Assembly (NCBI RefSeq): GCF_015155755.1
Contig: NZ_VWPI01000067.1
Location: 1 to 49,851 of the forward strand
Direction of reading: 5' to 3'
DNA: 49,851 nt
Origin: Komagataeibacter sp. FXV3
GTDB lineage: Bacteria > Pseudomonadota > Alphaproteobacteria > Acetobacterales > Acetobacteraceae
In this document: positions 2,892 through 40,185 of the stretch, in pieces
Layout: each line of letters starts with the position of its first letter
How positions within the stretch are numbered: the stretch's first letter is position 1
Position numbers and translations under genes: made by a program
Notes under the pieces: generated by a model
Seen by the model: the letters and a program-made list of their open reading frames with translations, nothing else
Told to the model about the DNA's origin: nothing
The model's database searches: none

Positions 2892-3502
2892 GCAACGTCA
2901 CGATCAATGGCCGACCGGTCTCCATTCTGGAATATCTGGGCCAGCGCGTCGTCACGCTGGCTATGATTGACGATCTGCATGGCCGCCCCAAAGACACGGC
3001 CCGCAAGCGCTTCAATGAAAACAAGCGCCGCTTTGTTGAGGGGGAAGATTACTTCGTCCGAAATCCGGACGAAGCCAGAGAGCTTGGGTTTACCGCCCCC
3101 AATGGCCTGACCCTGCTGACCGAAAGCGGTTACCTGATGCTGGTGAAGTCCTTCACGGACGATCTGGCATGGACGGTGCAGCGCGAACTGGTCACCGGCT
3201 ACTTCCGCGCGCCCCGGCAGCCGGACCTGCCCCGCAATACGCTGGCCACCATGGAACCGACCGAACTGAACGCCCGCATCGGCGCGTGCCGGCAGGCTTC
3301 GCGCCAGTGGGGCAAGTCAGCCGGTGCATGGGCATGGATGAAGGCGGGACTGCCCCGGCCGCCGCGGGAACTGCTCAGCGTAGCCGAGAACGCGGTGCTG
3401 GATGCCGTGAACGGCACCAAGCCCACACCGTCGCCAGTCCAGCGTCGGATCATGATTATCGAGGATGTGCAGGGCGGATCGGTCCCTACCCCGTTCCCCT
3501 GA
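2888..3502 (+). CDS. ORF6N-domain protein, probable phage antirepressor-type regulator
   Basis: A 204-residue protein. Residues about 15-100 fit the ORF6N domain: VTLAMIDDLHGRP, then KRFNENKRRFVEGEDYF, then LTLLTESGYLMLVKSF and VQRELVTGYFR. ORF6N is a DNA-binding domain typical of phage antirepressors and relatives of KilA-N/BRO. The C-terminal half (residues 110-204) contains NARIGACRQASRQWGKSA and WMKAGLPRPPRELLS, and resembles no domain I can name. It is coupled to the upstream ribbon-helix-helix gene by a four-base overlap, so the two may act together. Confidence 0.75.
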   Translation: MSNVTINGRPVSILEYLGQRVVTLAMIDDLHGRPKDTARKRFNENKRRFVEGEDYFVRNPDEARELGFTAPNGLTLLTESGYLMLVKSFTDDLAWTVQRELVTGYFRAPRQPDLPRNTLATMEPTELNARIGACRQASRQWGKSAGAWAWMKAGLPRPPRELLSVAENAVLDAVNGTKPTPSPVQRRIMIIEDVQGGSVPTPFP

Positions 3503-7625: not shown

Positions 7626-10600
7626 TCAGTCTTCAGATGCATGTTCCGCCATGCGTACCGCTTCATCGGCCTCGGCCTGTTCACGCACCCGTCGGCGCGC
7701 CCGGGCCCGCAGCCACAGCCATGCGCCAGTTCCCAGCATGATCGCGCCCGTCACACCACACAGGTACATCAGGATCGGGTGCCGCGACAGGAACCAGTCC
7801 ACCCACATCCACAGCGGCAACCTGCCCACCGTATAGGTGGGCGATGTGCGATAGGTCGTGAATTTGTCACCGTTCTTCAGCACCAGGTCACCCTGCAGGC
7901 TGGACAGGGCCTTGCGGTCATGCAGGCTGGTGACCAGGTCATGGATATGCGCGCCATCATCCCCCAGCAGCGCCAGAACAGAACGATGGCTTGCATAGGG
8001 GGATTCCGCCCCGATCATCATCGCGGCGTTGCGCACCGGGGCATTCAGGTTGGCGGTCACCCCATTGCGCAGTCCGCTGCCGTCACGGTCCTGGAACATG
8101 TACCAGATACCCTGCAGCCCCATATCCTGACCGACATGGATATGGCCATCGTCAATCTGGTATGCCGAACGTGACAGCAGGGAAGTTGCCGCCCCCATCT
8201 GCCCCACTGGCGCCAGCAGGATGATATCGCCCGAAGGCGGATTCTGCGCGATATCCGCCGTCGTGGCAAAATGCACCCCTGCGGCGGGATACCATGTCAC
8301 CGATCCCATGAAGCCCATCAGGTCAAGATAGGCCCCGATCGTGTCGGTATCCGGCGTGGGCGGCAAAACCACCGTGGTTTCCCCAAGGTCGGCCATGCGC
8401 GAAAACGGAAACCCGATTTCAGAAAAATAGGAGAGGTTGGGCAGGGTCGCGAAATGCACCCCGCGCCGGAAATCCAGCACGGAATCCGAATCAATCCCCA
8501 GACGCAGGTTATCGGGCGTACGGCGACAGGCTCCACGGTCCACCGGACGGGTATCAAAGTTGAACTGCAGGTCATTTTGCCCAAACAGAAGCCATGACGG
8601 TAGCGCCGTGACGTGCCCCACCGCGCCTGCATGCTGGGTAACCATCCGTTCCGACCACATGCGCCACAGGCTGTTGCCCAGCAGCGAATAGCTTTGCAGG
8701 TAGGAGTTGTTGAGACTGACATCCAGACGGGACGCGCTGATATCCACCACCGGGTTATCCGGCGTGCGCACCCACAGATCCATCAGGAAAGGCAGGCCAT
8801 GCCACGTATACAGGTCGGGCGGCAGGTGAAACGGCACATGCAGCGTACCGGGCGCAAACCCGCCAGCCTGCAGGTCGCCCGCTGTCACCAGTTCACCAAA
8901 GCGCACCGGGCGATCCGTCGGGATGAAAGCTGGTGCATCATATGGCGCGCGGGGGCGCAGGGTAACATCCTGCACCACGGCAGATGACATGTTGCCCAGC
9001 GTATCGGGCGAAAACACCAGCGCACGGGCCGCGACCTCAACCTCGTGCGGCGTGCGCCCGGTTACGATCAGGACGGTGCCCCACCTGTCATTGGGATTGG
9101 CGATTTCCAGCAGCGTCGGGCCAGCAGGCATGTGTCCCTGGTCATCAACAGGAATATTCTGCCCGATTTCAATGGCATTGCCCGATGCCGGCATGCTGCG
9201 CGACACGGGAAAAGATAGCAGGCGCGAGTCAGCCAGCTTGCCGAACCATGAGGCGACAAGCCCCCCCGCGCGCATGATGTCCTCCCCCGGTGATGACGCG
9301 GGCATGACCACCGGCACCCGCATGGCCACCTTCAGATTGGGATCGAAAAAGGGTACCGGCAACCGACTCAGGTCACGTTCGGGCACGATCCGCGCCGTGG
9401 TCAGGGTAATGCTGGACTGATCCGATATCTGGGCCCACAGCACGTCATTGTACAGGTCGTTGCAGTCACGCCTGTATTCACCGGCAAAATGGAAATTGAG
9501 CTTGTTGTCACCCGTGAAATAAAGCGGATCGACCTCGATTTCCATCGGACCGAAGGTCGGGTGCGTGGGATCGATGCGGATCGTGCCGACATACTGTTCA
9601 TTCAGGGTGACGGTCAGCGCCGTGGCTTCGGGCAGCAGCGAGGGCGAAATCGCCCCTGACAGTTTCAGCGTTGCATGGGTCACCACGCGGTTGGCCGGCA
9701 CCACCACGTCAATACCCTGCAATGGTGAAAAACCACGCAGGGTCAGGGGGCCGTTTTCAAGGCCAAGGTCATGAAACGGAATGGTGCGCGTAATTTCGGT
9801 ATCGGCCACCCGGTCCGCCAGCCTGGGGTCCGCCACACTGCCCACGGGCGGGATATCGCCACTGTTGGTATCGCCCAGCGGGGTCAGGCGCGACACGCCC
9901 GTCGTACTGTAAACCGGTGGGGATACAGGCGGCGCGGCGACAGGTGCCACGGCTGCCGGCGGCACGGGCGGGGGGGAGACGGGCTCCTGCGCCCGTGCGG
10001 GCGTCATCACCGACAGCAACATGCCCATCCCTGCCGCCATCATGGTCACGCCATAGCCAATGCCCCGATGGACAGGCGGCACCACAAGGCTCTTTTTTTC
10101 CAGCGTTTCTTCCTTGTGCACGCTTTCATCACTTTCTTCAGATTCCTGCGCCGGGCTGAGATCCCACAGGTAAGGCGGGGACAGAAGGCCGCCTATGCTT
10201 TTTATGACCTGATATATGCTGTTCAACGGTCGGTCATCCTTGAAATCGGCCCAGTTATGCCATGCATCGCTTCGACCGAATACAAAGCTGACAATCTGGC
10301 GTTCCTGCTCCAGCGTTTCATTTTTCCATTGCAGATGCAGCCACGAACCACGCTGCCCGAGAATGGTGGCAGGCACCGCCACCTCGATCCCGTCATCGGG
10401 CTTGCTGTACCGCAGGATGATGTCCATCGGGGTCTCAAGCTGTGTCGACAGGTTGAGGGTTACCCCCGCCCCACCCAGCGAAATATCCGTCGTATGGGCA
10501 TGATATGCCGCGCCATCGGCAAAACAGACCTCGACAGGCAGCTTGGCCCGCACGCGGGGCTTGTGCCGGATCTGTCGCGTCTCGCGCCCCACCGCGATGG

Positions 10601-12323
10601 ACGCCAGCACCACGATCAGGCTGATGGTGATCCATAACGTGTTGAGCAAGAAGGACTGGAACGCCAGTTTCTGATGGTACTGGAAAATCATGCCCAGTAT
10701 GCCGCGCACCATTCCCGCAAACAGGATCAGCGCCATGATGGCGTTGGGGTACACCGCGCTGAAATCGAAATACCCGCGCGCCAGAAGCCCGCCCTTGTCC
10801 GTCACGTTGAACTTGCCCTTGTGCGGCTGCAGCAGGGTGACGATGGTGATGCGGATAAGGAACAGCGCGAGCGAGGTCTCGTAAATCTCGCTCCAGAAGG
10901 AATAGCGCCACCGCCCCTCGATCCGGGACAGGGTCATGATGGAATGGAAAATATGCGGCAGCGCATAGACCATGATGGCAAAGGGGGATGCCGCGATGAT
11001 GTTCTGCCCGAAAAACAGGAACCCCAGCGGTGAGACAAGGAAGGTTACCCGTGGGATGGCAAACAGGAAGTGCGACATGGCCGACAGGTAGCACAGCCGC
11101 TGTTCCCACCGCAGGCCACCGCCCATCAGGGGGTTGTCCAGCCGCATGATCTGCAGCATGCCACGCGCCCAGCGCACGCGCTGGCCGATATGCAGGATCA
11201 GCCGTTCGGTGGCCAGTCCACCGGCCAATGGCTGGCACAGATAGGCCGTCCCCCACCCCTTGCGCTGCATCTTCAGCGCGGTATGGGCATCTTCCGTAAC
11301 CGTTTCGGTCGCGAAGCCGCCGACACTCAGCAGCGCCGAACGGCGGATGGCGGCACATGAACCGCAGAAGAATGTCGCATCCCAGAAATCATTGCCATCC
11401 TGCACCAGCCCATAGAACATGTTGCCTTCAGGCGGTACGTCATAGCCCGCGGCAAGGTTGCGCTGGAACGGATCGGGGGAATAGAAATGGTGCGGCGTCT
11501 GCAGCAGCGCCAGCTTGGGATCCGCCACCATCCAGCCAATGGTCTTGAGCAGGAAGGACCGGGTGGGCACATGGTCACAATCGAAAATGACCACGAACTC
11601 CCCCTTGGTGATCTTCATCGCGTGATTGAGGTTGCCGGCCTTGGCGTGGTTGTTCTCTGAACGGATGATGTAACCCGCGCCGGATTCCCTTGCAAAATCG
11701 TAAAAGGACTTCCGCCGCCCGTCATCCAGGATATAGACATTCAGCTTATCTGCGGGCCAGTGCAGGTCCATCGCCCCCAGTACGGTCGAACGCACCAGTT
11801 CCAGATCCTCGTTATAGGATGGGACATAGACATCCACCACCGGCCACTCATCGGTGTTGTCCGGAAGGTTGTGCGGCTTGCGGCCCAGGGGCCATGACAT
11901 CTGGAAATAGCTCAGGCACAGGGTGGACAGCGCGTATCCCTCAGCCAGAAGCAGGGCGATCGACATGACAATCTGCAGCGGACCGGTGAACTGCACCGTG
12001 CTGCCCAGCCGCCAGATCAGGTAACGGAAGGACACGAACAGGGACAGCATCATGAGGATGCAGGTAACGTGCCGTCCCTTCTTGCGGTTAAGGAAGAAGA
12101 ACAGGCTGATCGTGCCAATGGAAATATAGGCCTGCTGTGCGGGCGCAAGGGTAACGTCGCCAACAGACAGGCAGAGAAACGCCCCACCCGTCAGCAGGAA
12201 GCAGACAAGCCACTTCGTCCTGCGCGGCGTGGCCATGAACGCTTTGCCGCCCCACTTCAGCCACAATTCCCTTAGCATATTTTGCAACCAGACCGACCTG
12301 AATAAAAACCTGCTGATACGCAT
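7626..12323 (-). CDS. bcsAB: Fused cellulose synthase BcsA-BcsB (orphan, without bcsC/bcsD)
   Basis: A 1565-residue inner-membrane protein that polymerises UDP-glucose into beta-1,4-glucan. N-terminal membrane segments precede a GT2 domain with the family motifs YILDDG (near 198), FDCDH (near 249), TED (near 342) and QRVRW (near 380). A C-terminal PilZ domain follows (RHKPR near 585 and DISLGG), which binds cyclic-di-GMP. An Ala-rich hydrophobic segment ending TPARA-Q near 775 resembles an internal signal-peptide site before the periplasmic BcsB half. One membrane helix anchors the C-terminus (HPILMYLCGVTGAIMLG). Alternative starts exist at residues 16 and 30. No bcsZ, ccpA, bcsC, bcsD, bcsX or bcsY neighbour is present. 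It therefore resembles the stand-alone extra bcsAB copies described in Komagataeibacter; which numbered paralogue it is cannot be decided here. Confidence 0.93.
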   Translation of the reverse strand: MRISRFLFRSVWLQNMLRELWLKWGGKAFMATPRRTKWLVCFLLTGGAFLCLSVGDVTLAPAQQAYISIGTISLFFFLNRKKGRHVTCILMMLSLFVSFRYLIWRLGSTVQFTGPLQIVMSIALLLAEGYALSTLCLSYFQMSWPLGRKPHNLPDNTDEWPVVDVYVPSYNEDLELVRSTVLGAMDLHWPADKLNVYILDDGRRKSFYDFARESGAGYIIRSENNHAKAGNLNHAMKITKGEFVVIFDCDHVPTRSFLLKTIGWMVADPKLALLQTPHHFYSPDPFQRNLAAGYDVPPEGNMFYGLVQDGNDFWDATFFCGSCAAIRRSALLSVGGFATETVTEDAHTALKMQRKGWGTAYLCQPLAGGLATERLILHIGQRVRWARGMLQIMRLDNPLMGGGLRWEQRLCYLSAMSHFLFAIPRVTFLVSPLGFLFFGQNIIAASPFAIMVYALPHIFHSIMTLSRIEGRWRYSFWSEIYETSLALFLIRITIVTLLQPHKGKFNVTDKGGLLARGYFDFSAVYPNAIMALILFAGMVRGILGMIFQYHQKLAFQSFLLNTLWITISLIVVLASIAVGRETRQIRHKPRVRAKLPVEVCFADGAAYHAHTTDISLGGAGVTLNLSTQLETPMDIILRYSKPDDGIEVAVPATILGQRGSWLHLQWKNETLEQERQIVSFVFGRSDAWHNWADFKDDRPLNSIYQVIKSIGGLLSPPYLWDLSPAQESEESDESVHKEETLEKKSLVVPPVHRGIGYGVTMMAAGMGMLLSVMTPARAQEPVSPPPVPPAAVAPVAAPPVSPPVYSTTGVSRLTPLGDTNSGDIPPVGSVADPRLADRVADTEITRTIPFHDLGLENGPLTLRGFSPLQGIDVVVPANRVVTHATLKLSGAISPSLLPEATALTVTLNEQYVGTIRIDPTHPTFGPMEIEVDPLYFTGDNKLNFHFAGEYRRDCNDLYNDVLWAQISDQSSITLTTARIVPERDLSRLPVPFFDPNLKVAMRVPVVMPASSPGEDIMRAGGLVASWFGKLADSRLLSFPVSRSMPASGNAIEIGQNIPVDDQGHMPAGPTLLEIANPNDRWGTVLIVTGRTPHEVEVAARALVFSPDTLGNMSSAVVQDVTLRPRAPYDAPAFIPTDRPVRFGELVTAGDLQAGGFAPGTLHVPFHLPPDLYTWHGLPFLMDLWVRTPDNPVVDISASRLDVSLNNSYLQSYSLLGNSLWRMWSERMVTQHAGAVGHVTALPSWLLFGQNDLQFNFDTRPVDRGACRRTPDNLRLGIDSDSVLDFRRGVHFATLPNLSYFSEIGFPFSRMADLGETTVVLPPTPDTDTIGAYLDLMGFMGSVTWYPAAGVHFATTADIAQNPPSGDIILLAPVGQMGAATSLLSRSAYQIDDGHIHVGQDMGLQGIWYMFQDRDGSGLRNGVTANLNAPVRNAAMMIGAESPYASHRSVLALLGDDGAHIHDLVTSLHDRKALSSLQGDLVLKNGDKFTTYRTSPTYTVGRLPLWMWVDWFLSRHPILMYLCGVTGAIMLGTGAWLWLRARARRRVREQAEADEAVRMAEHASED

Positions 12324-26130: not shown

Positions 26131-26925
26131 TTATTCTCGTTCCACGGGGGCCAGCAGCACCTCGCCCGTCACCACGCGACGCACCCCATCAGGTGTGCGC
26201 AGCAACAGGATGCCGTCATCTTCCAACCCTGCAAACGTGCCGGTAAACTGCTGGTTTCCTGCCGTAACCCGTATGGGGGTACCGATTGCGTGTCCCCGTT
26301 CCAGCCATGCGGTGCGGATGGTGGAAAATCCATGTGCTTCGTAACGCGACAGCCACAGGCCCAGATGGTGCAGGAGCCTGTGCGCCACCTCGGGCGCTGC
26401 CGGTACATCGTCCCGGCAGTCCGCCAGGCAGGCCAGCGTGCGGCCTGCGATATCGGGCCTGCCCAGCAGGTTGGCCCCGATACCGATCACCTGCCATGAC
26501 ACCCCGGCCCCGATCCCGCTCTCGATCAGGATACCGGCCATCTTGCACCCATCAAGCAGCAGGTCATTGGGCCATTTCAGTTCCAGCGCATGACCGGCGG
26601 GCACGTAGGCCGCCACGGCGTCATGCAGCGCAAGCCCGGCAATGAACGGCCACAGCCCCACCGGCACCGCAGCCCCCTGCCCCACCAGCATGACCGACAG
26701 GGCAAGGTTGCCACCGGGATCACACCATGCACGCCCCCGGCTGCCACGCCCCGCCGTCTGTTCCAGCGCGAGGATGGCGACACCATCCGCCCCCTCGCCC
26801 GCCTCAAGCCGCGCCTTGCACAGATCGGATGTCGATCCCAGCCTTTCATGTACCTCCATCCGCCATGCGGGGCCATTGTCACGGGGGATCGTGATAACGG
26901 AAGGATAAAGGGCGGGCTGGGTCAT
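26131..26925 (-). CDS. birA: Biotin-protein ligase
   Basis: A 264-residue enzyme that makes biotinyl-AMP and transfers biotin to carboxylase carrier domains. The catalytic loop is EQTAGRGSRGRAW and the active-site lysine motif LKWPNDLLLDGCKMAGILIE; a small C-terminal SH3-like domain follows. It lacks an N-terminal helix-turn-helix, so it is not a transcriptional repressor. It starts three bases after the nuoN stop and is the last gene of the complex I transcript. Confidence 0.94.
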   Translation of the reverse strand: MTQPALYPSVITIPRDNGPAWRMEVHERLGSTSDLCKARLEAGEGADGVAILALEQTAGRGSRGRAWCDPGGNLALSVMLVGQGAAVPVGLWPFIAGLALHDAVAAYVPAGHALELKWPNDLLLDGCKMAGILIESGIGAGVSWQVIGIGANLLGRPDIAGRTLACLADCRDDVPAAPEVAHRLLHHLGLWLSRYEAHGFSTIRTAWLERGHAIGTPIRVTAGNQQFTGTFAGLEDDGILLLRTPDGVRRVVTGEVLLAPVERE

Positions 26926-26928
26926 GCG

Positions 26929-28353
26929 TTACCTGAACAATGCGCTCGCCGCCGCCTGTGCTGCTGTCGCAACGGGACCAAGCCCCACCACGAAGAACGT
27001 GGTCACCAGCCCCATTCCCACCGATACGAACGAGACGGAAACAGGCGAGCGGTCCAGCGCCGGGGCGGCGGCATCGAAAAACATGATCTTGACGATCCGG
27101 ATATAGTAATACGCCCCGATCACGCTGCTGACGATACCAATTGCCGCAAGGCCATAAAGATGCGCGTTGATCGCGGCATAGAACACCATGAGCTTGCCAA
27201 AGAACCCGGCCAGCGGCGGCGCGCCCGCCATGGAGAACATGAACACCGCCATGGCCAGCGCCATGCCCGGATCGGTGCGCCCCAGACCGGACAGGTCACT
27301 GATCCGGCTGACCGCGCGCCCCTTGCGGCGCATGGCGACAATGCCTGCGAACGCGCCGACATTCATGAACAGGTAAGTCACCAGATAGACCAGCGTGCCG
27401 CGCGTGCCCTCCGCCGTGCCGGCCGCCATGCCGATCATGGCGTAGCCCATATGCCCGATGGAGGAATACGCCATGAGCCGCTTGATGTTCCCCTGCGGAA
27501 TGGCCGCAAGCGAGCCGAATACCATGGAGGCTGCGGACACGACCTCGATCAGCAGCTGCCATTGCGGCGTCATGCTGCCAAACGGACCGGCCATGACGCG
27601 CAGCAGCACGGCGAATGCCGCGATCTTGGGCGCACCGGCCATATAGGCGGTGACCGAAGTGGGCGCGCCCTGGTACACATCGGGCGTCCACATATGGAAC
27701 GGCACCATGGACAGCTTGAAGCACAGCCCCACCAGCACGAACACGATGCCCACCATAAGCCCGGCAGGCAGCACCGCGCTGCCACGCACCGCCTGCTGCA
27801 GGCCGGCATATTCCATCGTCCCGGCAAAACCGTAGGCCAGCGAGATGCCATACAGCAGCAGCCCCGACGCCAGCGACCCCAGCACGAAATACTTCAGCCC
27901 CGCTTCCGCCGCCGTCACCCGGTCACGGGCAAAGGCGCACAGGATGTAGATGGACAGCGAGGACAGTTCCAGCCCGACAAACAGCGTCATGAGGTTGCCC
28001 GATGACGCCATGATCATCGTGCCCAGCGTGGAAAAGGCGATCAGGACAGGGAATTCGAACTTGTCGATTTCCATTTCCCGCGCATATCCCACGCTCAGCA
28101 CCACAGACAGGGCTGCCCCCGTCAGGCTCAGCACCTTCATGAAACGGGCAAAGCCGTCATTGATGAAGATATGGTTATACCCGGTGCCATCGGGCGACAG
28201 CACGACAAGGATGCCCGTGACCACCAGGGCCAGCAGCGTCATCATCGCACAGGAAAAAAAGGCCTGCCCGCGCCGTTGCATCACCCCGGCAAGCAGGATG
28301 ACCAGCCCCGACAGGGCCAGCACGATTTCGGGCAGTGCAAGTGTCCAGTTCAT
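26929..28353 (-). CDS. nuoN: NADH-quinone oxidoreductase subunit N
   Basis: A 474-residue antiporter-like subunit of the complex I membrane arm with about 14 helices. The start MNWTLALPEIVLALSGL is family-like, with an AGGG Shine-Dalgarno; an ATG six codons earlier is possible. FVGLELSSLSIYILCAF carries the helix-5 acidic residue, and AAEAGLKYFVLGSLASG the following lysine helix, both features of NuoN rather than NuoM. It follows nuoL after only 26 bases, where nuoM would normally lie. Confidence 0.95.
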   Translation of the reverse strand: MNWTLALPEIVLALSGLVILLAGVMQRRGQAFFSCAMMTLLALVVTGILVVLSPDGTGYNHIFINDGFARFMKVLSLTGAALSVVLSVGYAREMEIDKFEFPVLIAFSTLGTMIMASSGNLMTLFVGLELSSLSIYILCAFARDRVTAAEAGLKYFVLGSLASGLLLYGISLAYGFAGTMEYAGLQQAVRGSAVLPAGLMVGIVFVLVGLCFKLSMVPFHMWTPDVYQGAPTSVTAYMAGAPKIAAFAVLLRVMAGPFGSMTPQWQLLIEVVSAASMVFGSLAAIPQGNIKRLMAYSSIGHMGYAMIGMAAGTAEGTRGTLVYLVTYLFMNVGAFAGIVAMRRKGRAVSRISDLSGLGRTDPGMALAMAVFMFSMAGAPPLAGFFGKLMVFYAAINAHLYGLAAIGIVSSVIGAYYYIRIVKIMFFDAAAPALDRSPVSVSFVSVGMGLVTTFFVVGLGPVATAAQAAASALFR

Positions 28354-28379
28354 TGGTATTGGCCCTGACATGCCTGGGG

Positions 28380-30317
28380 TTAGCGGAAGAACAGCATGGT
28401 GGTCAGCAGCACCACCAGCCCGATCAGCATGGAAAAGGCATAGACCGCCATGGACCCGGTCTGGATGCGCACGGCCTGCCCCGCGCTGCCTGCGGTCAGG
28501 CGGGCCAGCCCTTCGGGTATGCCCTCGACCACGTCCTCGTCCACGCCCTTCCACAACAGGCGCGCAATCGCGCGATAGGGGCGGATGATGGCCACGTCAT
28601 ACAGTTCGTCGAAATACCATTTGTTCAGCAGGAACAGGTAAAGCGGACGCAGGCTGCGCGCGAGTGACGCCGGAATGCCGGGGCTTGCGATATAGCAGAC
28701 ATAAGCCACGGCAATGCCCAGAACGGCGGCGAATGTCGGCACCAGTGCGATAAAGCCCGGCGTCTGTTCAAGGCGTTCGATCACGTCATGGCCGGGAATG
28801 GCGGCAATCGCCCCGTTCCAGAACGCCGCCTGGTGGCTGCCGACATAGAACGGTTCCAGCACGATACCCGCAATTACCGCGCCCACGGACAGCAGGCCGA
28901 CCGGCACCATCATGGATGCCGGGCTTTCATGCGCGCCGTCATGCAGGTGCGCATCACGCGGCTTGCCATGGAACACCAGGAAGATCAGGCGCCAGCTGTA
29001 CAGCGCGGTCAGGAACGCGGTGACACATCCCATGACCCAGCCATAATGGCCCATGCCGCCATCTGACATCCATGCCGCTTCAAGGATCGCATCCTTCGAC
29101 CAGTACCCGGCAAAGGGGAAGATACCGGCCAGCGCAAGGCTGCCAATCCACATGGCGGCATAGGTGAAGGGAATCTTCCGCCACAGCCCGCCCATGCGGA
29201 ACATGTCCTGTTCATCATGCACCGCATGGATCACGCAGCCCGCGCCAAGGAACAATAGCGCCTTGAAGAACGCATGCGTGGTCAGGTGGAACATGGATGC
29301 CTGATACGCCCCCACGCCAACGGCCACGAACATGTAACCAAGCTGCGAACAGGTGGAATAGGCAATCGTGCGCTTGATGTCGGGCTGCACCAGCCCCACG
29401 GTCGCGGCAAAAAAGCTGGTGGTGCCGCCAACCAGCACGATCAGGTCGCGGGTGACCGGCGCCAGGTCCACCAGCGGCGACATGCGCACCATCAAAAAGA
29501 TGCCCGCCGTCACCATGGTCGCCGCGTGGATCAGGGCGGAAACCGGGGTTGGTCCCTCCATCGCATCGGGCAGCCATGTGTGCAGGAACAGCTGGGCGGA
29601 CTTGCCCATCGCCCCGATGAACAGCAGCGTCGCGATGACTTCATACAGCGGATGCGTGCCGAACAGCACGAACGTATCGTTCACATGGTAGGGGATGGCG
29701 GCGAAAATATCGTCATACGACACGCTGCCCAGCCGGATGAAAATCAGCGAAATGCCGACAAGGAAGAACAGGTCGGCAATACGGTTGACCACGAACGCCT
29801 TGATCGCGGCGGCACAGGCGGACGGACGGTCATACCAGTAGCCAATCAGCAGGTAACTCGCCAGCCCCACCCCTTCCCAGCCAAAGAACAGCTGCAGCAG
29901 GTTGTCCGATGTCACCAGCATGAGCATGGCGAACGTAAACAGCGACAGGTAGGAAAAGAAGCGGTAAACCGGCCGCGCCTCATGCGCCATGTAGCCCACG
30001 CTGTACACATGTACCAGCAGCGAGACCACGGTGACCATGGCCACCACGCTGACCGAAAGCATGTCCATGCGCAGCTGCCAGTCGGCCCGGAAGCCCGCCG
30101 CGTGGACCCAGTCGGCCACCGGCACGACAAACGTGCCCACGTCGCCCATCTCGAACCCCAGCACGCCAATGGCCGCCAGCGCCGAACAGATCATGAGGCC
30201 GATGGTGGTGAACCGCGCCGCCCCGTCGCCCATCAGGTGACCAAAACAGCCCGCCACCAGGAAGCCGATAAGGGGCGCGAACACCGCCACTTCAAACAGG
30301 AAGGATGCCGTCTGCAT
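28380..30317 (-). CDS. nuoL: NADH-quinone oxidoreductase subunit L
   Basis: A 645-residue distal proton-pumping subunit. It has SVGYMAHE, LFFGWEGVGLASYLLIG (Glu148) and IGAMGKSAQLFLHTWLPDAM (Lys239). The long amphipathic lateral helix and terminal anchor are present (ALYLFLLNKWYFDELYD-like segment near 555, last helix at the C-terminus). The C-terminus is complete, so the missing nuoM is not explained by fusion into this gene. It begins five bases after nuoK, with a good Shine-Dalgarno (TAAGGGA). Confidence 0.96.
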   Translation of the reverse strand: MQTASFLFEVAVFAPLIGFLVAGCFGHLMGDGAARFTTIGLMICSALAAIGVLGFEMGDVGTFVVPVADWVHAAGFRADWQLRMDMLSVSVVAMVTVVSLLVHVYSVGYMAHEARPVYRFFSYLSLFTFAMLMLVTSDNLLQLFFGWEGVGLASYLLIGYWYDRPSACAAAIKAFVVNRIADLFFLVGISLIFIRLGSVSYDDIFAAIPYHVNDTFVLFGTHPLYEVIATLLFIGAMGKSAQLFLHTWLPDAMEGPTPVSALIHAATMVTAGIFLMVRMSPLVDLAPVTRDLIVLVGGTTSFFAATVGLVQPDIKRTIAYSTCSQLGYMFVAVGVGAYQASMFHLTTHAFFKALLFLGAGCVIHAVHDEQDMFRMGGLWRKIPFTYAAMWIGSLALAGIFPFAGYWSKDAILEAAWMSDGGMGHYGWVMGCVTAFLTALYSWRLIFLVFHGKPRDAHLHDGAHESPASMMVPVGLLSVGAVIAGIVLEPFYVGSHQAAFWNGAIAAIPGHDVIERLEQTPGFIALVPTFAAVLGIAVAYVCYIASPGIPASLARSLRPLYLFLLNKWYFDELYDVAIIRPYRAIARLLWKGVDEDVVEGIPEGLARLTAGSAGQAVRIQTGSMAVYAFSMLIGLVVLLTTMLFFR

Positions 30318-30322
30318 TTCCC

Positions 30323-30646
30323 TTACCCCTTCATCATCGTGATATCATCGACTTCGATCGAGCCGCGATTACGGAAATAGACCGTGACAATGGCCAGCCC
30401 GATGGCGGATTCCGCCGCCGCGATGGTCAGCACGAACAGGGTCATCACCTGTCCCGACAGGTCGCCGGTGGCAGCCGAAAACGCCACGAAATTGATATTG
30501 GCCGAAAGCAGGATCAGTTCGATCGACATCAGGATGATGATGACGTTCTTGCGGTTCACGAAAATGCCGAACACGCCCAGAACCAGCAGGATCGCGCCAA
30601 TGCTCAGGTAGGGCGCAAGGCCGATCCCCTCAATCGCGCTATGCAT
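30323..30646 (-). CDS. nuoK: NADH-quinone oxidoreductase subunit K
   Basis: A 107-residue, three-helix membrane subunit starting [38 protein letters not shown] carries the conserved membrane Glu in helix 2, and [11 protein letters not shown] the second Glu in helix 3, both in the proton path. Its start overlaps the nuoJ stop by eight bases. The longer open frame (to 30907) runs through nuoJ and is not used. Confidence 0.95.
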
Positions 30647-31412
30647 TGTCCTGTCCTTTCGTGCCTGTCGCGGGGGCAATGACCACCAGCGCGGTCTGTG
30701 TTTCTTCTTCCGTTTCCTGTTCGCGCCACGCCTGCGTGCCATAGGTACCCGGCACCGCCGCCACGTCGTATGATGTATGCGGGCGCAGGAAACCGCCCTG
30801 TGCCGCAACGCCCACACCCAGCGGGACCTGAAGCATTTCCAGGCTGTCGGCGGCCGTGCGGTCGTGCTGGCGGTCGATGTTCTGGCGGCGTCCGGTGGGC
30901 CGGTCACGCAGCGTCAGCACGATCGCGCCGATCATCGCCACCAGCAGCACCAGCGCGCAGGACTGGAACAGGAAGATGTAATGGGTATAAAGCACGTCAC
31001 CGAGCGCCGCCGTATTGGTGCGCGTGGGTGACGACGGGACAAGGTGCCCGATCTGGTCGATGTTGGAGGCGACACGCCAGTGGGTGAACGCCATGATCAG
31101 TTCAACCAGCAGCACGCCGCCAACCATGCCGCCAATGGGCGCGTAACGCTGCACGCCTTCACGCATCCGCGCGAAATTGACATCCAGCATCATCACCACG
31201 AACAGGAACAGGACCGCGACCGCGCCGACATAGACGATCACCAGTGTCATCGCGAGGAATTCGGCCCCCGCAATCAGGAACAGCCCCGCCGCGTTGAAGA
31301 ACGCAAGGATCAGGAACAGCACCGAATGCACGGGGTTGCGCGCGCACACCACCATGGTGGCGGACAGGACCAGAACCGCCGCAAAAACGTAGAAGACAAT
31401 CTGGGTCATCAT
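30639..31412 (-). CDS. nuoJ: NADH-quinone oxidoreductase subunit J with a long C-terminal tail
   Basis: A 257-residue membrane subunit with five helices in the first 175 or so residues, including [26 protein letters not shown], the conserved helix-3 region. After the last helix ([20 protein letters not shown]) there is a hydrophilic tail of roughly 75 residues, longer than in most NuoJ proteins, containing [12 protein letters not shown] and an acidic [10 protein letters not shown] stretch. The start ([10 protein letters not shown]) has an AGGAAG Shine-Dalgarno. A 78-base gap separates it from nuoI. Confidence 0.94.
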
Positions 31413-31490: not shown

Positions 31491-31979
31491 TCAGCGGTAC
31501 GGGGCATCAAGTTCGAGCCTGCGGGCGAGAACGCTTTCCCAGCGGTCGCCATTGGCCAGGAGCTTGTCCTTGTCGTACATCAGTTCTTCGCGGGTTTCGG
31601 TCGCGAACTCATAATTCGGGCCTTCGACAATCGCATCGACCGGGCAAGCTTCCTCGCACAGGCCGCAATAGATGCACTTGGTCATGTCGATGTCGTAGCG
31701 CGTGGTCCGGCGGGATCCGTCGTCACGCGGTTCGGCCTCGATGGTGATGGCTTCCGCCGGGCATGTCGCCTCGCACAGCTTGCATGCGATGCAGCGCTCT
31801 TCCCCGTTGGGGTAACGACGCAGCGCGTGTTCGCCCCGAAAGCGCGGCGACAGCACGCCCTTTTCATAAGGGTAGTTGATCGTGGCCTTCGGCTTGAAGA
31901 ACGCCTTCAGCGTCACGCTCATGCCCGACACCAGTTCGGACAGAAGCATGGAACGGGCGGCTTTGCTTAATGTACCCAT
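31491..31979 (-). CDS. nuoI: NADH-quinone oxidoreductase subunit I
   Basis: A 162-residue peripheral subunit carrying two 4Fe-4S clusters (N6a and N6b). The ligands are [12 protein letters not shown] (Cys 63, 66, 69, 73) and [12 protein letters not shown] (Cys 102, 105, 108, 112). It starts at [11 protein letters not shown], overlapping the nuoH stop by one base, and passes electrons toward NuoB. Confidence 0.96.
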
Positions 31980-33001
31980 CAGCCTGCTCCTCCGGGCAGA
32001 AGGCCCGTTACCATCAGGAACCCCGCGCTCAGCACCATCCATGCCAGCGAAAACGGCAGGAATACTTTCCAGCCCAGCCGCATGAGCTGGTCATAGCGGT
32101 AGCGGGGAAATGTCGCGCGCACCCAGATGAAGACAAACAGGCAGAACAGGATCTTCGCGATCAGCCACAGCGGCCCCGGTATCCATGTAAAGGGCGCGAT
32201 CCCCAGCGGCGGCAGCCAGCCACCCAGGAACAGGATGCTGACCATGCCCGACATCAGGAACATGTTCGCGTATTCACCCAGGAAGAACAGGCCGAACGCC
32301 AGGGCCGAATATTCGACGAAGAAGCCCGCCACCAGTTCGCTCTCGCCTTCAGGCAGGTCGAATGGCGCGCGGTTGGTCTCGGCCAGCGCCGAGATGAAAA
32401 AGACGATGAACATCGGGAACATGGGCAGGCAGAACCACACGTTGCGCTGCGCCAGCACGATGTCATTGAGGTTGAGGCTGCCCACCGCCAGCAGCACCGA
32501 CACGATCACCAGCCCGATGGACACTTCGTAAGAGACCATCTGTGCCGCAGAGCGCAGCCCGCCAAGGAAGGCGTATTTGGAATTGGACGCCCACCCCGCG
32601 ATCAGGATGCCATAAACACCCAGCGATGAAATCGCGAGCAGGTACAGCACCCCCACATTGATGTTCGCGATGGCCAGCCCGTTACCCGTGGGAATCACCG
32701 CCCACGCCACCATGGCCAGCGAGAATGTCAGGAACGGCGCGAACAGGAACAGCATCCGGTTGGCGCCTGACGGGATCACCGTTTCCTTCGTCAGCATCTT
32801 GATCGCGTCGGCAAAGGCCTGCAGCACGCCAAACGGGCCGTTCACGTTCGGCCCCTTGCGCAGCTGCATGGCGGCCATCACCTTGCGTTCGGCCAGCGTC
32901 AGGTACGCAACCCCCAGCAGCAGCGGCACCAGCACCGCCAGCGTTTCCAGCACGATCAGCACAAGCTGGCCCGGCATGGTGTGAAAGAAGAAATCCGCCA
33001 T
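31979..33001 (-). CDS. nuoH: NADH-quinone oxidoreductase subunit H
   Basis: A 340-residue membrane subunit with eight predicted helices, forming the quinone entry site with NuoB and NuoD. Signature segments are [33 protein letters not shown], and [20 protein letters not shown] in the conserved loop. It starts [12 protein letters not shown] at 33001, four bases after the nuoG stop; the upstream extension is not family-like. Confidence 0.96.
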
Positions 33002-33005
33002 GATC

Positions 33006-35069
33006 CTACTCCGCCGCCTGGTTTGCAGGGTGCACGTAAATCCCCGAACAGGTTTCCATGGTGGGACTGGCGCGGCACACGGCATGGGTCAGGTAATAAT
33101 CGGCAATGACCGGGTGGAACGGGTCACTGGACATGGCCACGGCACCCGCCTGTGGCGGCGTGGTGTCGGCCGTGGCATGACGCGCCCACTGCGCCCCGAA
33201 TACCGGGCTGGCCCGCATCATGCGCGCACGCAGGGCCTCGATTGTGTCATAGGGCAGCTTGCGCCCCACCACTTCGGAAAAGGCGCGCAGGATGCGCCAG
33301 TCTTCCCGCGCATCCCCCGGCGGCATGACAGCGCGGAACGCTTCCTGCACCCGCCCTTCGGTATTGGTGTAGGTGCCGGGCTTTTCGGCATACAGCGTGC
33401 CGGGCAGGATGACATCCGCCCGCGCCGCGCCCGCGTCGCCATGGTGGCCCTGATAGACGACAAAGGTTTCCGGCCCGATGCGGTCGGTCGCGAATTCATC
33501 CGCGCCCAGCAGCCACAGCACGTCCACCCCGCCATCCAGCATGCCCGCCACGTCACGGCCCTTCGGCGCGGGCACAAGACCAAGATCCAGCCCCGCGACA
33601 CGACTGGCCGCCGTGTGCAGCACGTTGAAGCCATGCCAGTCGGGCGTCATGGCCCCCACCTGCGTCGCTAGGTCCCAGCATGCCTTTGCAATCGCCTGCC
33701 CGTCGGGACGCGTCAGCGCGCCGTGGCCGACAATGATCATGGGTTTTTTCGCGTTTTTCAGTGCATCGGCAAAAGGCAGTTTACCATCCGCCAGGTCCGC
33801 CAGCGTGTCGGGGCCTGCGCCCAGCACCTCGGCCGCATAGGTCGGGTCGGCATTGGGCGCGCCGATCATGGCGATGGGAAAGCCACCGCGCCCGGCGGCA
33901 AGGAAGCGCTTGCGGATGCGCGCATTCAGCACGGGCGCTTCCTGCCGCGGGACAGATCCCACGATCAGCAGCGCGTCCGCGTCCTCTATGCCGGTAATGC
34001 CCGTATTGAATGTGTAGAAGTCACGGCGTGACGTGTCGTATTTCGCCCCGTCCTGCCGACAGTCGATATTGCCCGACCCCAGCGTTTCCATCAGGTCCTT
34101 CAGCGCCATCATGCTTTCGGCATCGCACATGTCGCCTGCAATCGCGCCAATGCGTTCGCCCGGCACGTTCTTCAGACGCATCGCGATGGTGGAAAAGGCA
34201 TCCTGCCAGCTTGCGGGCTGCAACCTGCCATCCACCCGCACCCATGGCCGGTCAAGGCGGCGGCGGCGGAAGCCATCGACCACGAACCGTCCCTTGTCCG
34301 ACAGCCATTCCTCGTTCACTTCGTCATTGATGCGCGGCACGATGCGCAGCACCGCCGCCCCACGTGCATGCATGACGATATTGGTTCCCACCGCGTCACA
34401 CACATCGATGGAATCCGTGCGCTTGAGTTCCCATGAACGGGCGGTGAACGCATAAGGCTGCGATGTCAGCGCGCCCACGGGACAGATGTCGATCAGGTTG
34501 CCCGACAGTTCGGATGTCAGGGCCTTTTCAACATAATTGGTGATCTCGAGGTTTTCGCCACGTGAAATGCCGCCCAGTTCGGGCACGCCCGCGATTTCGG
34601 TCGAAAAGCGGATGCAGCGCGTGCACTGGATGCAGCGCGTCATGACCGTCTTGACCAATGGGCCAAGATACTTGTCGGTTACCGCGCGCTTGTTTTCACG
34701 GTAGCGGGAATGGTCCGCGCCATAACCGAAGGCCTGATCCTGCAGGTCGCATTCACCGCCCTGGTCACAGATGGGACAGTCCAGCGGATGATTGATCAGC
34801 AGGAATTCCATCACCGCGCGGCGGGCGCGGCGCACGACCTCGGTATCGGTGAAGATCTGCATCCCCTCCCCTATGGGGAAGCCGCATGAGGCGACCGGCT
34901 TGCGCCCGCCCGCCACTTCAACCAGGCACATCCGGCAGTTGCCCGCCACCGACAGGCGTTCATGATAACAGAAACGCGGGATTTCCTTGCCCGCCGCCTC
35001 ACACGCCTGCAGCGCGGAGGAACCTGCCGCGACTTCCACCGGAATACCGTCAACGGTTACTTTTACCAC
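33006..35069 (-). CDS. nuoG: NADH-quinone oxidoreductase subunit G
   Basis: A 687-residue iron-sulfur subunit starting at a GTG. The 2Fe-2S ligands are Cys34, 45, 48 and 62 ([21 protein letters not shown]). The His-containing cluster motif is [14 protein letters not shown], and a further 4Fe-4S set is [11 protein letters not shown] with DICPVGAL. A molybdopterin-oxidoreductase-like domain without metal function follows. It relays electrons from NuoF/E to NuoI. Confidence 0.96.
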
Positions 35070-35074
35070 TGTTC

Positions 35075-36400
35075 CTACTCCGCAGCTTCAACCAGGCCCA
35101 CGGGCACCTGCACGGGCCGCGTGCCGCCATGGGCGGCCTTGTAGGCATGGATGCGTTCTTCCATGACGGGCCGGAACCTGCGGATCAGCCCCTGTATCGG
35201 CCACGCCGCCGCATCACCCAGCGCGCAGATGGTGTGCCCTTCCACCTGCCGGGTGACCTGTTCCAGCATGTCGATTTCCTCGATTTCGGCGCGACCTTCG
35301 ACCATGCGTTCCATGATGCGCATCATCCATCCCGTGCCCTCGCGGCATGGGGTGCACTGGCCGCAGCTTTCATGTTTGAAGAATTTCGAGAACCGGGCGA
35401 TCGCGGCGATGATGTCGGTGGATCTGTCCATCACGATCATGCAGCCGGTGCCAAGGCCCGAACCTTCGGCGCGCAGGCTGTCGTAATCCATCAGCACGGT
35501 ATCGCACACGTCACGCGGCAGCATGGGCACCGAACAGCCGCCGGGAATGACCGCCAGCAGGTTGTCCCACCCGCCGCGCACGCCACCGCCGTGCTTTTCG
35601 ATCAGTTCCTTCATCGGGACACCCAGCTCTTCTTCAAACACGCAGGGCGTGTTGACGTGACCCGATATGGCCATGAGCTTGGTGCCCGCGTTATTGGGCC
35701 GCCCCAGTCCCGAAAACCATGCCGCCCCCCGGCGCAGGATGGTGGCGGAAACGGCAATGCTTTCCACGTTGTTGACCGTGGTGGGGCAGCCATACAGGCC
35801 CATCGCCGCCGGGAAAGGCGGCTTCATGCGCGGCTGGCCCTTCTTGCCCTCCAGGCTTTCCAGCAGGGCGGTTTCCTCACCGCATATATACGCACCCGCG
35901 CCACGGTGGATGTAGAAGTCGAAATCCCAGCCCGACCCGCAGGCATTCTTTCCGATCAGGCCCGCCGCATACGCCTCGTCAATGGCGTGCTGCAGGTGCA
36001 TGGCCTCGTTATAGAACTCGCCACGGATGTAGATGTAGGCCGCATGCGCCCCCATGGCGAAGGAAGCGATCAGCGCGCTTTCCACCAGCTTGTGCGGGTC
36101 ATGGCGCAGGATCTCGCGGTCCTTGCAGGTGCCGGGTTCTGACTCGTCACCATTGATGACGAGGTAATGCGGCCGCCCGTCATTCTTCCTGGGCATGAAC
36201 GACCATTTGACGCCGGTGGGGAAACCCGCGCCACCGCGCCCGCGCAGGCCGGATGCCTTCATCTCGCTGATGATGGCGTCACGCCCGCGCGCCAGTATGT
36301 CGGCCGTGCCGTCCCAGTCACCGCGTGCGCGGGCACCGGCCAGCGTCCAGTCGTTCTGGCCATACAGGTTGGTGAAGATACGGTCCTTGTCCTGCAACAT
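35075..36400 (-). CDS. nuoF: NADH-quinone oxidoreductase subunit F
   Basis: A 441-residue NADH-oxidising subunit. The FMN/NADH-binding stretch is [16 protein letters not shown] (51-66) with [14 protein letters not shown] and [15 protein letters not shown]. The 4Fe-4S cluster N3 motif is [11 protein letters not shown] plus Cys in HTICALGDA. It starts ATG five bases after the nuoE stop. Confidence 0.97.
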
Positions 36401-36405
36401 GTTCT

Positions 36406-37065
36406 CTACCCCTGCCCCTGCGGCTTGCGCGCCACGTCATCCACCAGCACCTTGCGCCCACCGGCGGGGGCGGCGTTCAGGCGGTCGATGGTGGGGCCGG
36501 GCCTGGGACGTTCACCGCGCCTGAGTGCGGCAATCAGTTCCTCGGTACGCGGGCCGTCCAGATCTTCGTAGTAATCATCATCAACCTGCAGGATCGGGGC
36601 ATTGGCGCACGCACCCAGGCATTCGACCTCGGTCAGGGTGAACAGGCCGTCGGCGCTGGTCTCGCCAAACGCCTTGATGCCCGTCGCCGCCTTGCACGCC
36701 GCCGTCACGTCATCCGACCCACGCAGCCAGCACGACGTGGTGGTGCAGACCTGCAGGTGGTACCGGCCGATCGGCTTGGTGTTGAACATGAGGTAGAAGG
36801 TCGCGACCTCGTATACCCGGATCGGGGCCATTTCCAGACGTTCGGCCACGACATCCATGGCCACGCGGGGGATCCACGCGCTGCCGGTCTGGCGGCCCAT
36901 CTGCTTCTGCACCACATACAGCAGCGGCAGCACGCCGCTTGCCTTCCGCTCGGGCGGATATTTGGCAAGAACGGTCGCAATCTGCTGTTCGCTCTCGTGG
37001 TCGAATTCAAAATGGGTGGGTTCCACGCCCTCAGGCGCGTTGGGCTGGACGGACATGTCGGTCAC
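36406..37065 (-). CDS. nuoE: NADH-quinone oxidoreductase subunit E
   Basis: A 219-residue thioredoxin-like subunit with a 2Fe-2S cluster (N1a) held by Cys107, 112, 149 and 153 ([22 protein letters not shown]). The fold start [23 protein letters not shown] is typical. It has a Pro/Arg-rich C-terminal tail of about 40 residues. Its start overlaps the nuoD stop by four bases. Confidence 0.96.
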
Positions 37066-38318
37066 CTGTCAATCTCGCCAAATACCAGATCGAGCGACCC
37101 GATAATGGCCACGGCATCCGCCAGCATGTGCCGGCGCGACATCTCGTCGATTGCCTGGAGATGGGAAAAACCCGTGGGCCGGATCTTGCAGCGATACGGC
37201 CGGTTGCTGCCATCAGCCACCAGATACACCCCGAATTCCCCCTTGGGCGTTTCGGTCACGGTGTAGGTCGCACCCGGTGGTACGTGGTAGCCTTCGGTAA
37301 ACAGCTTGAAGTGATGGATCAGCGCTTCCATCGACCGCTTCATTTCGCGGCGCGGCGGGGGCGTGATCTTGTGGTCGCGTATCTTGACCGGGCCGGGGCG
37401 GATCTGTTCCAGGCACTGGTTGATGATCTTCACGCTCTCGCGCATTTCGGCGACGCGTATCAGGTAGCGATCATAACAGTCGCCCTGACGGCCCACGGGC
37501 ACGTTGAATTCAACCTTGTCGTAATTGTCGTAAGGCTGGCTGCGGCGCAGGTCCCATGGCACGCCCGATGCCCGCAGGCACGGGCCGCTGAAACCCCAGG
37601 CCAGCGCCTGTTCGGTGGTGAAAACACCGATGCCCACCGTGCGCTGTTTCCAGATGCGGTTACTGGTCAGCAGTGATTCAAGGTCATCAATCCATCTGGG
37701 GAAGGTCCGCGCCCAGTCGGCAATACGTTCCTCCAGTCCCGCAGGCAGATCGCGCGCCACGCCACCGGGGCGAACGTAATTGGCATGGAAGCGCGCGCCG
37801 GATGCGGCTTCATAGAACTCGATCAGCTTTTCGCGTTCCTCATATCCCCACAGCGCGGGTGTCAGCGCGCCGCAGTCCAGCCCGAAGGAGGTCAGGTTGA
37901 GGATATGGTTCAGGATGCGCGTGATCTCGGCAAACATGACCCGGATCCATTTGGCGCGTTCCGGGGCCTCGATATTCAGCAGCTTTTCCACCGCCAGCGC
38001 GAAGGCCTGCTCCTCACACATGGGCGAGACGTAATCGAGGCGGTCGAAATACGGCAGCGCCTTGGGATACGTCTTGTATTCGATCAGCTTTTCCGTGCCA
38101 CGATGCAGCAGGCCGACATGGGGAATGGCGCGGGCGACGACCTCGCCCTCCATTTCCAGAACCAGCCGCAACACACCGTGGGCGGAAGGATGCTGGGGAC
38201 CGAAGTTCAGCGCATGGGAATCAATTTCCACCACATGGCGCTTGACCTCACCATCATGGTCCTCCGGCAGCATGCTGTCGGGAATGTCCGTATCACTACG
38301 AAGGGTTACGTCGCTCAT
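37062..38318 (-). CDS. nuoD: NADH-quinone oxidoreductase subunit D
   Basis: A 418-residue 49-kDa-type subunit related to NiFe hydrogenase large subunits, forming the quinone pocket with NuoB. Signature parts are [18 protein letters not shown] (quinone-site His), [38 protein letters not shown] and [10 protein letters not shown]. NuoC and NuoD are separate genes, unlike the fused NuoCD of E. coli. Confidence 0.97.
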
Positions 38319-38325
38319 CTGTCGC

Positions 38326-38994
38326 CTATCCCTGTCGTTTCATGTCCTGGCGGTCGGCATGTGCCTTTTCATCGCCCGGCAGCGTCAGGATGCCTTCCCA
38401 TGGGGATTCGAAATCGAAATTGCGGAAATCCTGCACCAGGTCGACCGGCCCATAGACCACCTGACGGCGTTCCTCGTCGTAATGCAGTTCGACATAACCG
38501 GTCAGGGGGAAGTCCTTGCGCAGCGGATGCCCTTCAAACCCGTAATCGGTCAGGATGCGCCGCAGGTCGGGCTGATCGGTAAACAGCACGCCAAACAGGT
38601 CGTAGCATTCGCGTTCCCACCACGTGGCCGCGGGCCATAGCTGGTGGACTGATGGCACGGGCGATGTCTCGTCCGTTGTCACGATCACGCGGATGCGGTG
38701 GTTATGGGTAACCGACAGCAGGTTGTAGACCACATCAAACCGCTCGGCCCGTTCAGGAAAATCCACGCCGCATATGTCCATCACCTGCTGGCAGGCGTAA
38801 CGCGGGTCATCACGCAGCATGGTCATGAGTTCGAGCAGCCGATGGCGCGTGGCGCGCACCACCAGTTCACCCTTCTCGATCCCGGCGGACATGATGCCCG
38901 GCACGGCTGTGGACAGGCGGAAGGCAATGGCGCCCAGCGGGCCCGACACGGCGCGCGGCACGGCCACGGGGGGGATGCTTGCGGGATCAGCCAC
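38326..38994 (-). CDS. nuoC: NADH-quinone oxidoreductase subunit C
   Basis: A 222-residue 30-kDa-type subunit. The central part has [33 protein letters not shown], and the family signature [20 protein letters not shown] with [16 protein letters not shown]. The N-terminal Ala/Pro-rich 20 residues are variable. Its start overlaps the nuoB stop by eight bases. Confidence 0.96.
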
Positions 38995-39568
38995 GGCGGA
39001 TTGTCCCTGTCCTGCGGATTTTCTTCTGCAGTTGCAGAATGCCGTAGATCAGCGCCTCCGCCGTGGGGGGACAGCCGGGCACGTACACATCCACCGGCAC
39101 GATACGGTCACAGCCCCGCACCACCGAATAGGAATAATGGTAATACCCGCCGCCATTGGCGCATGACCCCATGGAAATGACCCAGCGTGGCTCGGCCATC
39201 TGGTCGTAAACCCGGCGCAGGGCGGGCGCCATCTTGTTGGTCAGCGTGCCCGCCACGATCATCACGTCCGACTGGCGTGGCGATCCGCGCGGGATGATGC
39301 CCATGCGGTCCAGATCATAGCGCGGCATGTAGGCGTGGATCATTTCCACCGCACAGCATGCCAGCCCGAAGGACATGGGCCACAGGCTGCCGGTCCGGCC
39401 CCAGTTCACCAGCTTGTCCAGGCTTGCGACCACAAAACCCTTTTCGGTGATTTCACCGGTAATGCCCTTGATCACCGCGTCCTGCTGCGGCCCCGGCGGC
39501 AGCATTTCCCGGTTCCATGCAATACTGTCGGCAGGCCGGTCCGGCCCGGATGTATCGTTGCTACCCAT
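38987..39568 (-). CDS. nuoB: NADH-quinone oxidoreductase subunit B
   Basis: A 193-residue PSST-type subunit holding the terminal 4Fe-4S cluster N2. Ligands are the tandem Cys71-Cys72 (GLACCAVEM), Cys136 (MGSCANGGG) and Cys166 (VPGCPP). It has a strong GGAGG Shine-Dalgarno and begins 24 bases after the nuoA stop. Confidence 0.97.
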
Positions 39569-39592: not shown

Positions 39593-39958
39593 TCAATCCC
39601 AGTCCAGCGCGCCCTTGCTCCATTCATAAATGAAGCCGACCACCAGAATGCCCAGGAAGCCCATCATGGACGCGAAACCGAACCACCCGATCCGTGACAG
39701 ACTGACCGCCCACGGGAACAGGAACGCGACCTCCAGATCGAAAATGATGAACAGGATCGCCACCAGGTAGAACCGCACGTCAAAACGATGACGTGCATTA
39801 TCAAATGCCTCGAAACCACATTCGTATGCGGACGTTTTCTCGGCATAGGGTTTCTGGTGGCCAAACAGCAGTGAACTGCCAAGCATCGCGCCTGCGATCA
39901 CCACCGCAATGCACCCGAATATGAGTACGGGCAAATAATCAGCGATAACGGAATGCAT
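39593..39958 (-). CDS. nuoA: NADH-quinone oxidoreductase subunit A
   Basis: A 121-residue, three-helix membrane subunit, first gene of the operon. The start [15 protein letters not shown] is chosen over a TTG five codons earlier. The conserved loop [23 protein letters not shown] carries the Cys and acidic residues of the quinone-site loop, followed by [16 protein letters not shown]. The 228 bases upstream must hold the operon promoter; no clear hexamers could be assigned. Confidence 0.95.
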
Positions 39959-40185
39959 CTTCCGTGTTCCCAACCTGTTAATGCGCCATCGGCTGTCTTG
40001 ATCGACTTATGTATGGCTTCGGGGATGCTAGACCCAACATGCTGGGGGGAACAGTTACTTAACCGTGTTCTTGGGTGAACATTACTGTGAGGATGTATAC
40101 CGGACCATTTCCGTCAATATTACGTGACCGTTACTTATATGGCACGAATTATTGTTTTCATTTTCCCGTGTAAAAATATGGGCAC

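Follow-up and report, generated by a model that had tools for sequence, protein, structure and literature searches.

The nuoM gene absent from the complex I operon of Komagataeibacter sp. FXV3 lies beside mutL

Results and discussion

All 14 subunits of complex I are encoded in the genome of Komagataeibacter sp. FXV3: subunits A to L and N in the stretch of DNA analysed here (hereafter the window, 49,851 bp), and subunit M in a solitary gene on another contig, C199. Compared with the canonical 14-gene operon, FXV3 has the full set of subunits, an otherwise equal gene order and the proton-path residues, and differs in that its nuoM is unlinked and adjoins mutL and parE. We regard an ordinary, complete 14-subunit complex I with an unlinked nuoM as much the best reading, with a probability of roughly 0.93.

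The nuo operon of the window

Thirteen subunits lie in standard order on the minus strand, and nuoM is absent from the operon. NCBIfam profiles name nuoG to nuoK, nuoL and nuoN, and Pfam profiles fit nuoA to nuoF, which bears out the subunit inventory of the sequence-only reading. The stop codon of nuoL ends at 28380 and the ATG of nuoN is at 28353, leaving between them exactly 26 bases (28354-28379) with no gene; the sequence, the open reading frames and both profile collections agree with the earlier description of this junction. The mechanically called frame of nuoN starts further out, at 28554, and its profile match from residue 69 fits the ATG at 28353 (residue 68). The features of the region are:

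26131 to 26925, minus strand: putative birA-like gene after nuoN; its protein has a match next to nuoN in 20 of 20 split loci and in 13 of 14 operon loci
26929 to 28353, minus strand: nuoN, 474 aa (NF004440, 594 bits, cut-off 519, match from residue 69 of the long frame; PF00361)
28354 to 28379, minus strand: nuoL-nuoN junction, 26 bp, the usual place of nuoM in the standard order; in 21 of 60 family genomes nuoN is preceded directly by nuoL
28380 to 30317, minus strand: nuoL, 645 aa (TIGR01974, 781 bits, above cut-off)
30323 to 30646, minus strand: nuoK (NF004323, 151 bits, residues 95-194 of the frame 30323-30907; start approximate, set by eye from the profile match)
30639 to 31412, minus strand: nuoJ (NF005164, 266 bits; start approximate)
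31491 to 32042, minus strand: nuoI (NF004539, 310 bits; longest frame, match from residue 24)
31979 to 33085, minus strand: nuoH (NF004745, 512 bits, residues 33-363; longest frame, start probably near 33000)
33006 to 35069, minus strand: nuoG (TIGR01973, 727 bits)
35075 to 36400, minus strand: nuoF (PF01512, PF10589)
36406 to 37065, minus strand: nuoE (PF01257)
37062 to 38318, minus strand: nuoD (PF00346)
38326 to 38994, minus strand: nuoC (PF00329)
38987 to 39568, minus strand: nuoB (PF01058)
39593 to 39973, minus strand: nuoA (PF00507)

The gene at 26131-26925 is presumably birA-like, judging from the appearance of its sequence. Elsewhere in the window, positions 7626-12323 (minus strand) form a single frame of 1565 aa, which we take to resemble a cellulose synthase catalytic part plus a BcsB-like part, as in cellulose-making Komagataeibacter.

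The solitary nuoM

The genome of FXV3 (3.6 Mb in 208 contigs) was searched with the NuoM model TIGR01972, and two genes score above the cut-off, one on C199 and one on C145. Loss of NuoM, with a complex I lacking this pump subunit, is rejected in view of these two genes. The gene on C199 (8798-10339) is intact and encodes 513 aa; its segment 8861-10303 matches the model at 555 bits (cut-off 263.8) with no stops, while nuoL and nuoN of the window reach only 124 and 140 bits, below the cut-off. Of the possibilities raised by the sequence-only reading, a nuoM encoded elsewhere is thus the one that the genome supports. On the same strand, mutL ends 134 bp before nuoM; downstream of nuoM comes parE, which faces it. 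The best match of the solitary NuoM among solved structures is chain M of PDB 8qby (438 bits), presumably the Paracoccus enzyme. A search of the nuoM region with Rfam gave no match. A weak PF00361 fragment (21.7 bits) was also seen at a contig end, G000:C181:12-203 (L010), and may be part of a different antiporter-like membrane protein truncated at the contig boundary.

The other gene above the cut-off belongs to a second, divergent and contiguous nuoL-M-N set of the same genome, located on C145 (L008, C145:1-20000). A 676-aa frame upstream of this set may, by its size, be a fused nuoCD. C145 bears three contiguous antiporter-type genes, the middle one scoring as NuoM, and the window operon could in principle draw its NuoM from there. 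This NuoM, however, is merely 38% identical to the solitary one and sits with an L and an N of its own. Moreover, in 12 of the 21 genomes that share the split arrangement (described below) no second set was evident at the thresholds applied (three matches to TIGR01972 plus one to NuoN), so the set cannot be the general source of NuoM; all 21 fetched genomes nevertheless have an open solitary nuoM with its charged residues, and a comparison of seven genomes shows selection on the solitary gene. Supply of the window operon from C145 is accordingly very unlikely. Two types of nuo operon, one common and the second present in some, have been described in acetic acid bacteria (PMC4596401); that comparison is based on nuoHIJKLN, and the passage describing it makes no mention of nuoM or its place. 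A predicted Fur site is reported upstream of a set that lists nuoCD and nuoM (PMC9368920), which we infer to be of the second operon type.

Spread of the split arrangement

Named genome contigs were scanned with the solitary NuoM, giving 28 named loci from Komagataeibacter, Novacetimonas, Gluconacetobacter and Acetobacter indonesiensis. In all 28, nuoM comes after mutL in the same orientation, and neither a nuoL nor a nuoN of the window type adjoins it; the weak NuoL and NuoN hits in these stretches fall inside nuoM itself. The mutL-nuoM spacer measures 101-165 bp in 26 loci and about 2 kb in the other two, and parE was also seen in 20 of the 28 stretches. The NuoM of FXV3 shares 98% identity with its counterparts in K. 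swingsii, K. diospyri, K. oboediens and K. intermedius.

A draw of 150 genomes of the family gave 139 with a match to the NuoM model and 137 with a NuoN match at the thresholds used. For the 60 of these 137 whose loci were fetched, the gene next upstream of nuoN was identified by script, which supplied the comparison with related species that the sequence-only reading had proposed: it is nuoL in 21 genomes, FXV3 included, and nuoM in 39, among them G059, which bears two such nuoL-M-N operons. These genomes and the named loci are not independent, as contigs of equal length occur in five pairs (L021/G123, L033/G067, L023/G038, L024/G149 and L027/G108). Across the 21 split genomes the length of the junction ranges from -1 to 87 bp, with 17 of them at 19-37 bp, measured up to the position aligning with residue 1 of the NuoN of FXV3. 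Wherever a fetched stretch of a split genome includes both mutL and parE, nuoM is situated between the two. The neighbourhood of parE is not constant: in G038, for example, it is on another contig.

The split genomes are related by descent. All 21 form one clade in the NuoN tree (100/98), and so do the 14 used in a ParE+IleS tree (100/100), in which G059 is represented by only five ParE residues (its match holds a TAG) and G002 by a partial IleS. A larger sample of 394 genomes contained 77 whose NuoM shares 60% identity or more with the solitary protein; the next match, at 57%, is an operon copy. Among the matches listed, all 19 genomes of the genus Komagataeibacter have a solitary-type NuoM, and the non-matching genomes listed include none of this genus.

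This distribution bears on the proposal that the strain or its assembly has suffered a deletion. The FXV3 assembly is a draft of 208 contigs, which leaves room for faults, but the junction sits within a contig of 49.8 kb, and 20 further genomes, several of them near-complete, also have nuoL immediately before nuoN; in G117, for example, which is in five contigs, nuoN is at C1:906220 and nuoM at C1:463612. Because of these 20 genomes, both an assembly fault and a strain-specific deletion are rejected, and we assign them a negligible probability; the split belongs to a whole clade.

Functional state of the solitary NuoM

The nuoM frame is open in all 21 split genomes fetched. The TAG in the nuoM of G649 is the gene's own terminal stop codon; the match extends one residue beyond the coding sequence. 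Compared pairwise with one set of six relatives, nuoM has a dN/dS of 0.08-0.21, nuoN of 0.08-0.21 and nuoL of 0.11-0.27; the ranges are alike, and the solitary nuoM is therefore under purifying selection about as strong as that on its partners nuoL and nuoN.

The charged residues of the proton path (E151, K230, H237, K261 and E403 in the numbering of FXV3) are kept in all 21 solitary NuoM proteins. Their correspondence to E. coli numbers is assigned by motif and is in part presumed; by motif, E403 is E407 of E. coli NuoM. The distal glutamate is present in the solitary NuoM where NuoL and NuoN have lysine. In E. coli, the glutamate E407 sets NuoM apart from NuoL and NuoN, as stated in the passages of PMC9271201 on the roles of these residues.

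The central lysine, K261 in FXV3, was also followed in other NuoM proteins. It is kept in 32 of the 33 operon NuoM aligned. The two g49 genomes examined, G113 (L127) and G048 (L185), have asparagine instead in their operon NuoM, and asparagine likewise stands at this position in an extra NuoM of G010, G091 and G136 (L092-L094). Judging from this residue, such proteins may have unusual pumping.

A shortened complex I without NuoM and with altered proton stoichiometry, one of the options of the sequence-only reading, has the gap between nuoL and nuoN as the one observation in its favour. An intact and selected nuoM elsewhere in the genome, open with its charges kept in all 21 split genomes, speaks against it, as does the expression of a solitary nuoM counterpart in the proteome tables of Acetobacter pasteurianus (PMC10742644, see below). 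We give the shortened complex practically no credence. For the complete enzyme that we favour, the solitary nuoM would be transcribed separately from the nuo operon, as suggested by its start 134 bp after mutL and by a conserved upstream element. Its product would then be inserted in the membrane, be supplied in trans and be assembled between the operon-made NuoL and NuoN, resulting in a full-length proton-pumping arm with presumably normal pumping.

Evidence from Acetobacter pasteurianus

The annotation of A. pasteurianus SKU1108 published in 2016 lists a nuoA-N operon of 13 locus tags and gives nuoM apart (PMC5158111), and is in this respect like FXV3: a 13-tag operon and a separate nuoM. 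It concerns another genus, and the split is stated there in passing, with no comment on its age or origin in the passages that deal with the operon. The arrangement is old, and published annotation already shows it.

The proteome tables of PMC10742644, also on A. pasteurianus, give values for both the operon-encoded and the separate subunits. NuoM (fig_HN.1610) is at 0.62/0.33 in the lag phase and 2.16/1.78 in the exponential phase; the corresponding values are 0.39/0.24 and 2.72/2.05 for nuoB (3342), and 0.93/0.31 and 2.22/2.12 for nuoN (3354). NuoM is therefore down in lag and up in exponential phase, the direction taken by NuoB to NuoI (genes 3342-3350) in the rows covered, although in the first lag comparison nuoN is unchanged (0.93) while nuoM is down (0.62). 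The running text on these proteins names NuoM only among those that are down at 6% acetic acid. As nuoI is gene 3350 and nuoN gene 3354 in these tables, the numbers leave room for J, K and L only, which fits the split in A. pasteurianus. Gene 1610 presumably corresponds to the nuoM on the mutL side.

A conserved element upstream of nuoM

The spacer between mutL and nuoM is poorly alignable save for one element, TC[GT]GNNNAA[CT]GTGA. It is located 68-92 bp before the aligned nuoM start in all 28 named loci, in FXV3 (L009:10391-10407, minus strand) and in 10 of the 20 other split genomes, counts in which named loci and family genomes overlap in five contigs; it is absent from the other 10 of these 20 and from the three g89 copies described in the next section. 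The element is kept across genera amid otherwise diverged DNA. In L026 and L028, where mutL and nuoM are about 2 kb apart, it stays with nuoM. A stricter form of the pattern has one exact match in the FXV3 genome, at nuoM, and four matches with one mismatch, one of which falls in the window (48432-48448); with this stricter pattern, none was found upstream of nuoA in FXV3. A loose pattern gives 30 matches against 32.7 expected by chance, and a site common to the nuoM upstream element and the window is rejected. The element probably belongs to the promoter or the leader of nuoM.

A sigma-70-like match upstream of nuoM was also considered and discarded, being no better than in shuffled sequences (one found, mean 0.7). 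Its second hexamer is conserved among the Komagataeibacter rows aligned and is not kept in other genera.

Evolutionary history of nuoM

Three genomes of a related genus, designated g89 (G134, G089 and G455; loci L090, L091 and L179), carry an extra nuoM away from the nuo operon, besides the operon copy. This extra gene lies about 25.6 kb from parE, with mutL about 280 kb away.

In the NuoM trees, which carry the warning that long branches meet, the 21 solitary copies and the g89 extra copies form a clade (100/100) that excludes every operon copy sampled, g89's own included. The clade is unchanged after dropping eight long rows; all three runs of the test omitted these eight named rows, run A additionally the g89 extra copies and run B additionally the solitary rows. 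The g89 extra copies branch below the solitary ones, which form a clade by themselves with support of 84/86 in the first tree and 97/88 in the second (built with 12 of the 26 class rows, type-2 NuoM being left out). An AU test rejects a clade of g89 extra and own operon copies (p about 1e-63). At 21 sites the g89 extra copy shares a residue with at least 80% of the solitary copies that occurs in at most 10% of operon and class copies, against nine sites at which it sides with the operon type rather than the solitary type, and three shared by the extra and own operon copies of G134 alone. The NuoM alignment holds no convincing indel marking the solitary type. When the solitary rows are left out, the g89 extra copy falls on a very long branch, near no operon copy, so that the evidence tying g89 to the solitary type is that of the joint trees and the shared sites.

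The sequence-only reading had held that a nuoM elsewhere in the genome would make the gap only a relocation. The gene is indeed elsewhere, but the trees point to an older paralogue that replaced the operon copy: the 100/100 clade of solitary and g89 extra copies, with g89 keeping its operon copy, suggests paralogue replacement and not a plain move. We lean slightly towards a history in which an ancestor gained a second nuoM, the role of the operon copy passed to the solitary gene, and acetic acid bacteria dropped the copy in the operon. That an anciently diverged, unlinked paralogue was swapped in for the operon copy in the ancestor of acetic acid bacteria, with g89 retaining both, stands at even odds in our estimate.

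A plain relocation would have the operon nuoM move beside mutL in the ancestor of acetic acid bacteria and evolve faster thereafter, g89 having acquired its extra copy later from that lineage. Several observations are in line with it. All split genomes form one clade in the NuoN and ParE+IleS trees, and the split lineage is placed near G113 in both the NuoM and the NuoN trees, as orthology predicts. In the NuoN tree g89 groups with G059, G105 and G050 (99/88), not with the split genomes; the ParE+IleS tree places it without firm support, although a clade of g89 plus the split genomes is not rejected (AU p 0.19). Relocation is harder to reconcile with the joint clade of solitary and extra copies apart from all sampled operon copies, which persists without the eight long rows, with the branching of the g89 extra copies below the solitary clade, with the balance of the shared sites, and with the AU rejection of a clade uniting the g89 extra and operon copies. 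We give this history an appreciable chance, though short of even. Transfer of a solitary-type gene into g89 is possible.

Significance

In the open-access literature on nuoM and complex I in acetic acid bacteria, we did not find the origin of the split discussed, which is no proof that such a discussion is absent. PMC12361115 surveys complex I genes, and its single main-text mention of Komagataeibacter concerns a plasmid-borne set. Modest points that may be new are the possible swap of paralogues and the conserved element upstream of nuoM.

Recognising the unlinked nuoM averts a false reading, that of a three-pump enzyme reduced to two. Operon order alone is no evidence of subunit loss, and surveys that require contiguous genes for a complete complex I would misjudge these bacteria. 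Should the relocation history be true, the enzyme would be just as complete. If instead the paralogue history is true, genomes with both copies would let the competition of two NuoM variants for one slot be asked, and if the swap took place, g89 would represent a halfway stage in the exchange of a subunit within an obligate one-to-one complex, open to experiment.
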